From Odontesthes bonariensis (Eukaryota; Chordata; Actinopteri; Atheriniformes; Atherinopsidae), in assembly GCF_027942865.1 (NCBI RefSeq), contig NC_134511.1, positions 40,136,607 through 40,200,606 of the forward strand: a stretch of DNA of 64,000 nt, in the 5' to 3' direction. Shown in pieces: positions 38,601 through 59,600 of this stretch; the stretch's first letter is position 1; every line of letters starts with the position of its first letter. The notes under the pieces were generated by a model that did not search any database, was not told where the DNA came from, and saw only the letters and a list, made by a program, of their open reading frames with translations. The position numbers were made by a program, and so were the translations under genes.

Positions 38601-41600
38601 TTTTGTAGCTAACAAAGTACTGGACATCACAAAAGAACGTGTGACTGGTACAGATGTAGCTGACCCACTGAAGGAGGACCCTGAACTGTCATCCTCATCT
38701 GAGGAATCATCTGGGTTGTTCCCACTGCTCTGCTCAGAAACATAAGACTCTTTGCTGGTCCTTTGTGGATATTGGGTTGATGACAGCAATTCTTTGGCAG
38801 GATGAGTAACAGCACTGACCATGTCTGATATGCTTTTCGTCTCCTCTGTTTCAGCTTCATCGGTTGCCACAATAAATTCATCCGGGGTTTTTGTGGTCGT
38901 TTCAGTGGACCCGACACCAGATCCATCTGGACTTGACTCCAAATCAAGTAAACTGCTAGAACTCTCCATGTCAGCATAGGTTTCCTTTGAGGTAAACACA
39001 GCGACACTGCGTGTTGCCATGGGCTGAGAAGTTTCACTTGTATGATGACTTGTTGATGGTCTGTTTGTGGTCGCTGCATGGGTTGTTAATTCCTCAATGT
39101 GTTGCTTGGTCACACTTTGAGATTCCACGGGGATTTCATCTGTGTATGCAGATGTATCCCCTCCTGAGTACTCTAGCTCAGGAGAATCGCCACTTCTTGA
39201 CTCAGTCACTGATGCCGTCACTACCCCAGCAGTGGAATAAAACTGGGTAGCATCTGTAGACACTCCTGTCATGAACTCAGATGACTGCTGGGTTGATGAT
39301 TCAACACCAGGCTGTGATGTGCTCTGAGTCAAAACTATCAGGCTTTCATCTGTTGCTGTGGGGAATGGGATTTTGCTCTGAACTTGGCTGGAAGCAGTTG
39401 CTGGCACTGCTGCCGTTTTCTCTGTACTGAAGAGAGTTTGCAAATGCTTTGTTGTTTCAGCCTCAGAAGATGTTGTTGTCACCGTTGTGGCAGGTGCAGT
39501 TGTAAAGGATGTGGGGCTCTCTGTTGTTTTGATGAAAACTTTGGTTGGTGTATCTGTACTCAACATGGGAGAAACAGGGGGAGTGGTAACATCAGCTGTG
39601 TATGATGACTTCAAGTCTGTGCCTGTAGGTTTGACAGTTGTTTTAGTAAGGATAGGTAAAGATTCAACTAATGAGAAGTTTGTGCTGATGTCAGAGTCCA
39701 CTCCTTCCTCTGTCCATCCCAGTGGTGTAGCTGTTGAGGTTTCTATACTGACAAAAGAAGATGTTAGAGTAGATATTTGAGTAAACAGGCCAGGGGTTTG
39801 GTCCCCAGAGCCCTCTCCCTGCAATGTGCTAGTTAGAACTGTTGAGGGTATTTCAGTACTGTGCATAGAAGTAGTATCATCTACTCTTGAAACTGTATCA
39901 CTAGTATATCCAACAGTTGTCATCCAAGGTTTATCTGTGCTGAATACAGAGGAGGACTGAGTAAAAGTGGAAGGGGAAGAAAGAGATTCCTTGATGGGCG
40001 TATAAATAGGAGATTGGCTTTTAGTGATGTCAGCAGTTGTGATATTGGTGTCTGTTTCAAGAGTTGCTGTGTGCTCTTCAGAGTCCGGTAGAATTGTTCC
40101 ATTTTGAGTGTGCAAAGATGACAATGTAACAGTAGATTGTGAACTTTCACTTGTTCCAGGTTCAAGTGATGATGTCACTGCTGTTTTTTCTGTGCTGAAC
40201 ATGGAGGAACTAATCGTGGATATTTCACCATCAACTTTTGTGGTAAAATCTGTGGTCTGACTAATAAACTCAGACTCATCTATGATAGGAATGGATGACT
40301 TTGTAGAACTTGAAGAAATTGAAGCTGTTTCATGTGAGCTTGCAATCATTGAAGCCGAGTTGCTGCTTCCTTTTATGGCTTGGTCTGTAGTTGGCGACAA
40401 CGACAGTGCAGATGATTGCTCTGTTGTCATTTCTATTGTCTCTCCAGATGAACTATCCTCAGTTAGGAGTGTAGTCTCAGACTCATCAATGATTGGGATA
40501 TCTGGTGGGTTTTCTGTGCTTTGAAGTTGTAGTTTAGGCCTAATTGTAATATCTGAGTGCAATGGTGTGGTACCAGTAGTTCTTGGCGTTGTGGAATGGC
40601 CAGAGTTGTCTGTCAGTAGCACCATAGATGTTGACAGTGAGTAATGAGGGGTGGATGGTGTTGTTCCGGTAATAAAGTCTGTAAAATCATCAGCTGAGGT
40701 TGTAGAATAGGTAGAAGAAATTAATGTACTCATGTCAGTAGGTGCTGTGAAGGGAATATATTCCTCAGAATGAGTTCCCGTGTTCTGATCAAAATCTCTA
40801 CTGGGTGTTCCAGTTAATATGGGGCTAACAAAAGTCATAATGTGGGTTTGTGTAGGTTCTCCTGAGCTATCATCATCTGTTATTGATGAAGTTGAACTTT
40901 CCTCTGATGTCATTAAATCTTTCTCAGACTTCCCTGCAGTAACAGTCTGTTGCGTTTCAGGTGACACTGATGTTGGTTTCTCTGTACTGGAGAGCGATGA
41001 ATGTGTAGAAACTGCTGACTCTGAAGTCACATTTGTTTCATTTTGCGCTGATGATGTGACTGATGATGATGATGGAATCAGTGTTGAGGAGACAGTAGTA
41101 GCCGTAATGAATGATTCACTAATTAAATCAGAAGTGTGGAGTCCTGAAGTCTCTGCTTCTGTGCTGATGAGGACTGTTGATGTTTCAGGAGAAACTGTTT
41201 CTGTGGCTGAGCTGTACAGAGATGAAGATGGAACTGTAACAGATGATGTTGAGTGGAACATATCTGGGGTTCGTTCACCTGAACCCTCTACATCTAGTGG
41301 AGTATTGACTGAAGATTTCTCTGTCTTATCAGTAACAATAGAAGCTGAGGACATCATCGTCTGATCTGTGTGAACACTTTCATGGTCCTTAACTGGCAGT
41401 GCTGTTGGTGTCTCTGTGCTGAACAATGAGGAACCTGTAGGACGTGTGGTGTGCTTACTGACCATCTCACTTGTAGGTTCTCCTGAGCTGTCCTCATCTG
41501 TTGTTGATGAAGTTGAACTTTCCTCTGGTGTGACCGAGTGTTCATCTGAGGAAGTTGTAACAGTCTGTTGCGTTTCAGGTGACACTGATGTTGGTTTCTC

Positions 41601-56600: not shown

Positions 56601-59600
56601 AGGAGAAACTGTTTCTGCGGCTGAGCTGTACAGAGATGAAGATGGAACTGTAACAGATGATGTTGAGTGGAACATATCTGGGGTTCGTTCACCTGAACCC
56701 TCTACATCTAGTGGAGTATTGACTGAAGATTTCTCTGTCTTATCCGTAACAATAGAAGCTGAGGACATCATCGTCTGATCTGTGTGAACACTTTCATGGC
56801 CCTTAACTGGCAGTGCTGTTGGTGTCTCTGTGCTGAACAATGAGGAACCTGTAGGACGTGTGGTGTGCTTACTGACCATCTCACTTGTAGGTTCTCCTGA
56901 GCTGTCCTCATCTGTTGTTGATGAAGTTGAGCTTTCCTCTGGTGTGACCGAGTGTTCATCTGAGGAAGTTGTAACAGTCTGTTGCGTTTCAGGTGACACT
57001 GATGTTGGTTTCTCTGGACTGGAGGGCGATGAATGTGTAGAAACTGCTGACTCTGAAGTCACATTTGTTTCATTTTGCGCTGATGATGTGACTGATGATG
57101 ATGATGGAATCAGTGTTGAGGAGACAGTAGTAGCCGTAATGAATGATTCACTAATTAAATCAGAAGTGTGGAGTCCTGAAGTCTCTGCTTCTGTGCTGAT
57201 GAGGACTGTTGATGTTTCAGGAGAAACTGTTTCTGTGGCTGAGCTGTACAGAGATGAAGATGGAACTGTAACAGATGATGTTGAGTGGAACATATCTGGG
57301 GTTCGTTCACCTGAACCCTCTACATCTAGTGGAGTACTGACTGAAGATTTCTCTGTCTTATCAGTAAGAGGAGAAACTGAGGACATCATCGTCTGATCTG
57401 TGTGAACACTTTCATGGTCCTTAACTGGCAGTGCTGTTGGTGTCTCTGTGCTGAACAATGAGGAACCTGTAGGACGTGTGGTGTGCTTACTGACACTCTC
57501 ACTTGTAGGTTCTCCTGAGCCGTCCTCATCTGTTGTTGATGAAGTTGAACTTTCCTCTGGTGTGACCGAGTGTTCATCTGAGGAAGTTGTAACAGTCTGT
57601 TGCGGTGACACTGATGTTGGTTTCTCTGTACTGGAGAGCGATGAATGTGTAGAAACTGCTGACTCTGAAGTCACATTTGTTTCATTTTGCGCTGATGATG
57701 TGACTGATGATGATGATGGAATCAGTGTTGAGGAGACAGTAGTAGCCGTAATGAATGATTCACTAATTAAATCAGAAGTGTGGAGTCCTGAAGTCTCTGC
57801 TTCTGTGCTGATGAGGACTGTTGATGTTTCAGGAGAAACTGTTTCTGTGGCTGAGCTGTACAGAGATGAAGATGGAACTGTAACAGATGATGTTGAGTGG
57901 AACATATCTGGGGTTTGGGTACCTGAACCCTCTACATCTAGTGGAGTATTGACTGAAGATTTCTCTGTCTTATCAGTAACAATAGAAACTGAGGACATCA
58001 TCGTCTGATCTGTGTGAACACTTTCATGGCCCTTAACTGGCAGTGCTGTTGGTGTCTCTGTGCTGAACAATGAGGAACCTGTAGGACGTGTGGTGTGCTT
58101 ACTGACCATCTCACTTGTAGGTTCTCCTGAGCTGTCCTCATCTGTTGTTGATGAAGTTGAACTTTCCTCTGGTGTGACCGAGTGTTCAGCTGAGGAAGTT
58201 GTAACAGTCTGTTGCGGTGACACTGATGTTGGTTTCTCTGTACTGGAGGGCGATGAATGTGTAGAAACTGCTGACTCTGAAGTCACATTTGTTTCATTTT
58301 GCGCTGATGATGTGACTGATGATGATGATGGATTATATACAGTAGTTTCAGTCGTAGTTTTCACTGTCACTGTCTGAGACATTAAAGAAGCAGAAGAGGC
58401 TTCAGTGTACTCAGTATCCGGGGAAGTTTTGCGTGGTGTTTTTTCAGGTTTTGTCGCTGAGGAAGAAACTGATTCTTCCACTAAGGGCTCAGGTGTAATA
58501 GTGTCATCCTCAACATTTGAAACAGCAGATAAACTTGGAGAAATTGTTGAAGGGCTTATCATCGATATTGTAGAATAAGAAGAAACTGATGGTTCACCTG
58601 ACTCTCCGTGTGTTTCATCAGTTTCTGTTAATACGGTAGTATTCTCGGATGAATGCTGGCTGAAAAATTGTGAGAATGAGGCCATTGTTGTCTTGATTAT
58701 GTCTATAGCACTGTATGAAGAGGAAGTAGAAGTTGTTTCATCTTGTTTTCTCTCCTCATGTGCAGTTGTTGAAATTCTTTCCCACACATCAGGGATGAGA
58801 CCAGATGTTTCATCTGTGTCTGCCGTCTGTATTTCTGCTGTTAGTGCTGTCTGTGAAGAAGTATGTGTCTGTGTCCTACTTATATCTGTGGATGGTGTTG
58901 TCTCAGTCTTTGTAAACTGTTCATAAGGGGTAGAGCTCAAAGCAAATTCTTTTCTGGTTTGTATCTCTTTCTGTCTGTCCACATCTTGAGTGACGCCCTT
59001 AGATTCACTGGTTGGTGTTGGTGTTTTTCCAGTGACATCATCAGAGGAGGGAGTAGAGATGGACTGAGAGCTGTCTTTTTCAGCTGGAGTGGCAGATGTG
59101 CTCTTTCTTTCCTCTGTGGTTTCAGCTTCATCTCTGGCTGTATAAAGTCTGGTTGAAAAGGTTACGGGCGATTCATCCTCAGCCTTCACAGTCTGAGTCA
59201 CTTTTGAATCAATTTTCATATCCATGGGAGTCCTCCCTGACTCGCCCACATCGTCGTGTCCAGACGTTGTGCTGACAGAGAGGGTTTTCTTCTGGGTTTT
59301 TGTTGTTTGGGTTTCTTCAGTTGCTTTGGTGACCAGCGGCTCAGATGGTGTTACTGTCGGAACAAAGTCAGTAGAATTTGTTGCAGCTTGGCCTTCATTT
59401 TTTTGTGTAATTTGTGACAGAGCCTTGGCCTCCACTGTAAGGGATGGGATTGGGGTTAAGTCTTTGTGTGTTGGGTCTTTTGTGGTCAGCTTATCCATTA
59501 TGAGTGGAGGCGTTGATTCAACTATTGAAGGGTCATAATAAACCTTCTCTGTGTCCTCTGTAGATGTCAGCGCTGCTGTGCCTATAGATTCAGTATCAGT

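Follow-up and report, generated by a model that had tools for sequence, protein, structure and literature searches.

We analysed a stretch of 64,000 nucleotides from the teleost fish Odontesthes bonariensis (contig NC_134511.1, here C7:40136607-40200606, in a genome of 945 Mb and 187 contigs; henceforth the window) and found that a gene which we take to be versican carries, within a single exon, a head-to-tail array of 28 complete and near-identical coding units. We consider it probable that this is the GAG-beta exon (GAG, glycosaminoglycan) of a teleost versican in which one of its own stretches of 206 residues was amplified into a 28-unit coding minisatellite. The result is a real and striking enlargement of a known protein, with about 5,750 residues added, and not a new kind of gene.

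Array and host exon

The array lies on the minus strand in a stop-to-stop frame of 8,190 codons (window positions 35379-59951), the only one among all frames of at least 150 codons that stays open across it. Within this frame, an AG acceptor and a GT donor delimit an exon of 24,402 bp and phase 1-1, i.e., with two bases before the first of its 8,133 whole codons and one base after the last. Its length is divisible by three, so the exon can be skipped in frame, which would permit isoforms of the V2 and V3 kind. The array takes up 5,752 codons. The remaining 2,381 residues of the exon, together with the other exons, make up a versican of roughly ordinary size, and the array is thus an addition.

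All 28 units were used in the counts that follow, with none dropped. Unit length is 206 codons in 17 of them, 204 in nine and 207 in two, and a two-codon (ET) and a one-codon (S) variation account for all three lengths. Counting two variants that differ by one residue, we found the landmark peptide STEKPTSVS 29 times, spaced by 204, 206 or 207 codons (612, 618 or 621 bp). Pairwise DNA identity averages 98.5% (range 97.1-100%) and protein identity 97.1%, with 184 of 207 aligned columns invariant. The original prediction, made from the sequence alone, had placed about 28 near-identical units of 206 residues at 40855 to 58331, with the same three spacings, and had described them as homogenised and frame-preserving; its span equals our 28 units (40989-58244) plus the edge pieces, and the number, spacing, similarity and unbroken frame of the units all hold. 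Tandem Repeats Finder did not list the array, as the longest period that it considers is 500.

Both edges of the array are sharp. At the upper (5') edge, the first unit is preceded by roughly 90 nt of unit tail (29, 30 and 29 identical positions per 30 nt), beyond which identity falls to background. When this piece is included, the profile scores 10.5 bits on the 5' flank of the exon, while none of 100 shuffles exceeded 5.5 bits. At the lower (3') edge, about 50 nt of good match past the last unit are followed by a diverged half-unit, whose 43.5 bits compare with at most 3.0 in 100 shuffles.

The unit itself appears to be confined to this exon. A protein search of the whole genome with the unit (E up to 0.001; 71 of 71 candidates scored) gave 29 matches, namely the 28 units and one weak match, all of them within the giant exon, and we therefore rejected a dispersed repeat or transposon. 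We likewise rejected a known domain, as Pfam (E up to 1) matched neither the one unit scanned nor the two exon flanks. Scans of the window for Rfam families (gathering scores) and for tRNAs gave no hit, and no relative of the first 308 residues of the giant exon was found among solved structures. On the plus strand, frames across the array are cut at the identical place in each unit and reach at most 203 codons; those of 200-203 codons were rejected as genes, being one antisense frame with the same stops in every unit.

The assignment of the gene to versican is based on domain order, exon layout and a hapln1-like neighbour. The order is Ig, link, link, GAG-alpha, giant exon, EGF, EGF, C-type lectin, CCP. 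Its first part lies outside the window, upstream in the gene and on the same strand of the contig, where Pfam detects a V-set Ig domain and one link module, while the second link module corresponds to two exon-sized frames recognised by eye, without a score. The GAG-alpha-like exon found there (1,005 bp, 5 Ser-Gly) is, like the giant exon of 24,402 bp, divisible by three, and two separate large GAG exons (alpha and beta) of such lengths are a layout that we take to mark versican. Against provisional reference sequences for three lecticans, the lectin domain has 111 of 129 residues identical to human versican, 90 to aggrecan and 78 to neurocan, which may hint at a closer relation to versican. 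Among the best 60 of 333 rows of a structure-chain comparison, the aggrecan C-type lectin chain 1tdq is the top single-domain chain (218 bits), while multi-domain lectin receptor chains outscore it in sum. The neighbour, which is arranged tail-to-tail with the gene, was called hapln1 rather than another hapln by eye; excerpts of two published reports pair Vcan with Hapln1 (PMC5016917) and link fish versican to the link-protein gene hapln1 (PMC514892). The original prediction of a versican with a repeat-expanded GAG exon is thus borne out, with the array placed in an exon of the GAG-beta type.

Exchange among units and origin of the unit

Diversity over the 28 units is 0.0156 per nonsynonymous and 0.0129 per synonymous site (piN/piS 1.21, given without an error bar), and the 33 biallelic ungapped sites are spread 11/11/11 across the codon positions. 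These values give no sign of selection at the residue level within units. We studied linkage at the 24 of these 33 sites whose minor allele occurs in at least two units (a stricter set, with at least three units, holds 22). The four-gamete test fails for 147 of 276 pairs of informative sites, and mean r2 drops from 0.67 for sites less than 10 nt apart to 0.04-0.07 beyond. Variants are thus nearly unlinked beyond 10 bp as well as equal over codon positions, which argues that exchange, and not detectable residue-level selection, keeps the units alike; indeed, their mosaic variants require that exchange happened repeatedly.

Exchange has also acted on blocks. Units 15-18 and 20-23 differ at only 2 sites over four units and are a recent multi-unit duplication, and a five-unit period over the array is mildly significant (permutation share 0.024). 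With mosaic variants and multi-unit duplications both present, the array groups with concertedly evolving coding minisatellites. Unequal exchange and short-tract conversion would be the simplest account of its evolution; specifically, the array may have grown within the exon through gene conversion and unequal crossing-over. It is a clear example of exchange that operates between coding units over tens of bases.

As to where the unit came from, the 3' flank of the exon contains stretches that resemble parts of it. The best ungapped match has a score of 42, whereas the highest among 100 shuffles is 38 (mean of the maxima 28.3), and three other matches score 32-35, i.e., above the mean but below the largest shuffle maximum. 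The motif S-[LMV]-[FY]-S-[TP]-[ED]-[EKT], defined post hoc from the sequence itself, occurs 6 times in this flank, where 0.08 occurrences would be expected and none of 1000 shuffles had more than 2. Alignment of the whole unit to the 3' flank is suggestive (3 of 200 shuffles reach its score), so the case for relics rests on the ungapped matches. These suggest that the unit is versican's own GAG-beta sequence, amplified over older, worn repeats. Relics were rejected in the 5' flank without its edge piece (score reached by 11 of 200 shuffles with gaps, and by 53 of 100 without), as was the unit in the GAG-alpha exon of the same gene (55 of 200 shuffles) and in the GAG-beta (32 of 200) and GAG-alpha (74 of 200) exons of the closest versican paralogue.

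This paralogue, on contig C27, has identities of 94% (third lectin exon), 67% (first lectin exon) and 56% (CCP exon); for a gene on contig C1, the third lectin exon reaches 82%. Its exons for Ig, link modules and EGF on C27, like its two GAG exons, were identified by eye. The counterpart of the giant exon is about 927 bp long if the phase-keeping acceptor is used and 952 bp if the alternative one is, and its open frame of 322 codons contains 6 Ser-Gly. The very short GAG exons at this locus (C27:26566476-26577620; a 237-codon frame and a 309-codon exon), set against the giant sister, mark a large asymmetry between duplicates. In medaka, versican counts 3,539 aa in all according to the excerpted text of PMC6603046, which is fewer than the 5,752 residues of our array, and it is therefore too short to hold one like it. 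Both comparisons agree with the earlier expectation that the unit is not a general feature of versican, and no description of a repeat-expanded versican appeared among the listed open-access matches, judged by titles and the starts of abstracts. The comparison covered the GAG exons of the C27 paralogue; further probable lectican loci, whose GAG exons lay outside it, are on C6, C12, C19, C20 and C23, and a 10-kb piece on C20 gave nothing useful. At C23:10601468-10656682 there is an apparent tandem cluster of C-type lectin genes with 33-42% identity to the versican lectin and CCP query.

Ser-Gly sites, predicted product and competing explanations

Each unit has three Ser-Gly sites, DED[S/G]SGEP, VEGSG[ER/TQ]TP and AETSGLH, which amount to 84 in the 5,752 residues of the array (1.46 per 100), alongside 56 N-glycosylation sequons. 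An acidic residue stands two positions before the serine in 84 of 84 sites, and glutamate directly follows the glycine in 52 of 84. Since such surroundings are typical for chondroitin sulfate attachment, these sites are candidates for it. The flanks carry 19 Ser-Gly in all (0.72 and 0.82 per 100), and the array is thus about twice as dense. The short GAG frame of the C27 paralogue lies above the array, at 1.86 per 100, and a frame on C1, in the gene that we called aggrecan by eye, has 87 Ser-Gly in 581 codons (15 per 100), roughly ten times the density of the array. This aggrecan-type frame includes 5.5 copies of a 54-bp, in-frame, Ser-Gly-rich unit of 18 residues at C1:42132022-42132316 (L025 2022-2316). 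Further along the same locus, after this frame and before the EGF exon, 162 copies of a 31-bp unit form a minisatellite of 5 kb (C1:42133971-42138950; L025 3971-8950), which is probably intronic because several frames are open on both strands. The array is also less dense in Ser-Gly than human CS1 and CS2, as far as the excerpt of PMC9346369 gives them.

Serine and threonine make up 45% of the array (33% and 36% of the flanks), there is no cysteine, and the region is probably unfolded. Growth would have been tolerated in such a Ser/Thr-rich, probably unfolded spacer, where length changes in multiples of three keep the frame. The predicted versican comprises about 9,100 residues: 8,451 counted in the window, 334 in the GAG-alpha exon and the rest in an N-terminal head of estimated length. 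The head would bind hyaluronan together with link protein, and the C-terminal lectin end would be held much farther away, on a core lengthened about 2.7-fold that carries as many as 84 additional Ser-Gly sites. Versican normally fills space in soft tissue, and it is generally treated as fairly fixed in size, with its effects set by splicing and cleavage. A likely effect of the array would be a longer and more hydrated brush, adjustable through exon skipping, and the design looks like an extended versican spacer that bears scattered chains, unlike the brush of aggrecan. Close to the exon start, EGKEAKG (59688-59708, minus strand) resembles by eye the mammalian cleavage site for ADAMTS, quoted as DPEAAE/A in an excerpt of PMC4349717; if the protein were cleaved there, the array would remain with the C-terminal part that is set free. 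As a natural form whose core is almost tripled in length, this gene offers a direct test of whether core length, apart from the end domains, matters in the matrix of heart, skin and fin.

Several observations weigh against our preferred reading of an amplified stretch of versican's own sequence that alters the protein. Far-site r2 under the stricter filter is 0.062, a value that none of 1000 permutations reached, compared with 0.037 under independence, so mixing is strong yet incomplete. Neighbouring units are less alike than an average pair of units (9.85 vs 8.23 differences at informative sites), which points to recent growth by blocks and not to single-unit slippage. Just one relic in the 3' flank beats all 100 shuffles, and the fact that 28 of 28 units keep their Ser-Gly sites is in itself no evidence of selection, since 184 of 207 columns do not vary in any case. 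That the exon is included and that chondroitin sulfate is attached are themselves predictions.

A serious competitor, to which we give somewhat less than an even chance, is neutral minisatellite growth in an unconstrained, disordered exon, with length a by-product of no benefit. It shares the molecular history of the preferred explanation and differs from it on function alone. The piN/piS of 1.21, the even spread over codon positions and the recent multi-unit duplication are consistent with it, as is the presence of a 5-kb minisatellite near the aggrecan-type frame of the same genome; against it, 28 units without a stop or frameshift argue that frame and openness are at least maintained. The original prediction had proposed a convergent, aggrecan-like domain. 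In a rival explanation of this kind, the expansion would have been selected for dense packing of chondroitin sulfate chains as in aggrecan CS1. Three Ser-Gly per unit with acidic residues nearby, 84 in total at about twice the flank density, would fit this, and the aggrecan coding repeat does change the number of attachment sites, as stated in the excerpt of PMC12776774. However, a density of 1.46 per 100 against 15 in the aggrecan-type frame and 1.86 in the unexpanded paralogue, together with a piN/piS of about 1, makes selection for dense packing unlikely. Short repeats with dense Ser-Gly characterise CS1, whereas the units here span 206 residues, and "aggrecan-like" is better replaced by amplification of the gene's own GAG-beta sequence; "convergent" applies only weakly, to the fact that coding tandem repeats arose in each of the two genes.

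It is similarly doubtful, and a little more so, that the array is mostly spliced out in V2- or V3-like isoforms, with little effect on the protein made. The skippable lengths of both GAG exons (24,402 bp in phase 1-1 and 1,005 bp) would allow this, and V1 and V2 junctions were seen in medaka embryos according to the excerpted PMC6603046; the same text has V1, including exon 8, made in medaka, and an exon that is never used would be unlikely to stay open over 8,133 codons. Least probable of all, we consider, is an assembly artefact, in which the assembler inflated the copy number or made the mosaic units. Units this similar, with duplicated blocks among them, are difficult to assemble, but the window contains no N, the frame is intact in 28 of 28 units, no second contig carries the unit among the protein matches, and the large contigs (40.7 Mb for this one) suggest a long-read assembly. 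Beyond the amplified GAG-beta exon that we prefer, we raise only tentatively a wider scenario of a conversion-driven coding variable number tandem repeat (VNTR), in which the roughly 2.7-fold core may vary in copy number between individuals and tune how large and how hydrated soft matrix is, in the way that the VNTR of aggrecan acts on cartilage, and in which the exon may be one of the longest coding exons of vertebrates.

Annotated features and comparison with known systems

Features of the gene and its array are collected in the table below. Elsewhere in the window, a 587-codon frame on the minus strand (8709-10472) looks by eye like a reverse transcriptase of the long interspersed nuclear element (LINE) type.

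Table. Features annotated in the window, with positions, strand and supporting evidence.
Feature	Position	Strand	Evidence or remark
GAG-beta-type versican exon	35510..59911	-	splice sites, phase 1-1
Non-repeated 5' exon flank, 555 residues incl. edge piece	58245..59909	-	without its last 32 residues, no relic above shuffles
Partial unit at 5' array edge, about 32 residues of unit tail	58245..58340	-	29, 30, 29 of 30 nt identical
Tandem array, 28 complete units of 612/618/621 bp	40989..58244	-	landmark spacing; 29/29 genome protein matches in this exon
Units 15-18, one copy of recent multi-unit duplication	47154..49622	-	2 differences in 4 units vs units 20-23
Units 20-23, other copy; five-unit period, 3,081 bp	44073..46541	-	comparison with units 15-18
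Diverged half-unit at 3' array edge, unit residues 1-49	40839..40988	-	43.5 bits
Non-repeated 3' exon flank, 1,826 residues, with unit-segment relics	35511..40988	-	profile and ungapped matches
Probable relic of the unit's second Ser-Gly site	39783..39824	-	score 35
Possible relic of unit residues 43-79	38484..38594	-	score 33, weak alone
Possible relic of unit residues 37-65, ending GSSLFSTE	38268..38354	-	score 32, weak alone
Relic of unit residues 48-73	36699..36776	-	score 42, reached by 0/100 shuffles
EGF-like exon 1	35298..35411	-	Pfam, exon structure
EGF-like exon 2	35046..35159	-	exon structure, structure-chain comparison; alone not scored by Pfam
C-type lectin exon 1 of 3	32771..32929	-	exon structure, structure-chain comparison; alone without Pfam match
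C-type lectin exon 2 of 3	32392..32474	-	exon structure, structure-chain comparison
C-type lectin exon 3 of 3	30098..30242	-	domain match, exon structure, structure-chain comparison
CCP (sushi) exon	29741..29923	-	domain match, exon structure
Last coding exon with stop	29471..29628	-	exon structure
hapln1-like gene, Ig and two link modules, extent of open frames	20786..24342	+	tail-to-tail with versican

The closest known system is the vertebrate VCAN GAG-beta exon (exon 8) itself, with which the giant exon shares the gene, the domain order, the place between GAG-alpha and EGF exons, the possibility of skipping in frame and a Ser/Thr/acid-rich sequence with scattered Ser-Gly. It differs by the array of 5,752 residues, which exceeds the whole medaka protein and stands against a counterpart of under 1 kb on C27. 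The coding minisatellites of mucins and filaggrin are also repeats within an exon, whose number varies and alters glycosylation or subunit number (both as given in the excerpt of PMC12776774); these proteins are not proteoglycans, whereas the host here is a hyaluronan-binding lectican with Ser-Gly sites. Finally, the coding VNTR of aggrecan CS1 is likewise a set of in-frame tandem repeats in a large lectican exon with Ser-Gly in every unit, 29 repeats being given for human CS1 in the excerpt of PMC9346369. By contrast, the human unit is 19 residues long with two Ser-Gly and the aggrecan-type unit of this fish 18 residues with four (by eye), compared with 206 residues and three in the array, and the tenfold higher Ser-Gly density of the aggrecan-type gene applies over its whole frame. 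Two lecticans of one genome thus carry in-frame repeats of quite different design.

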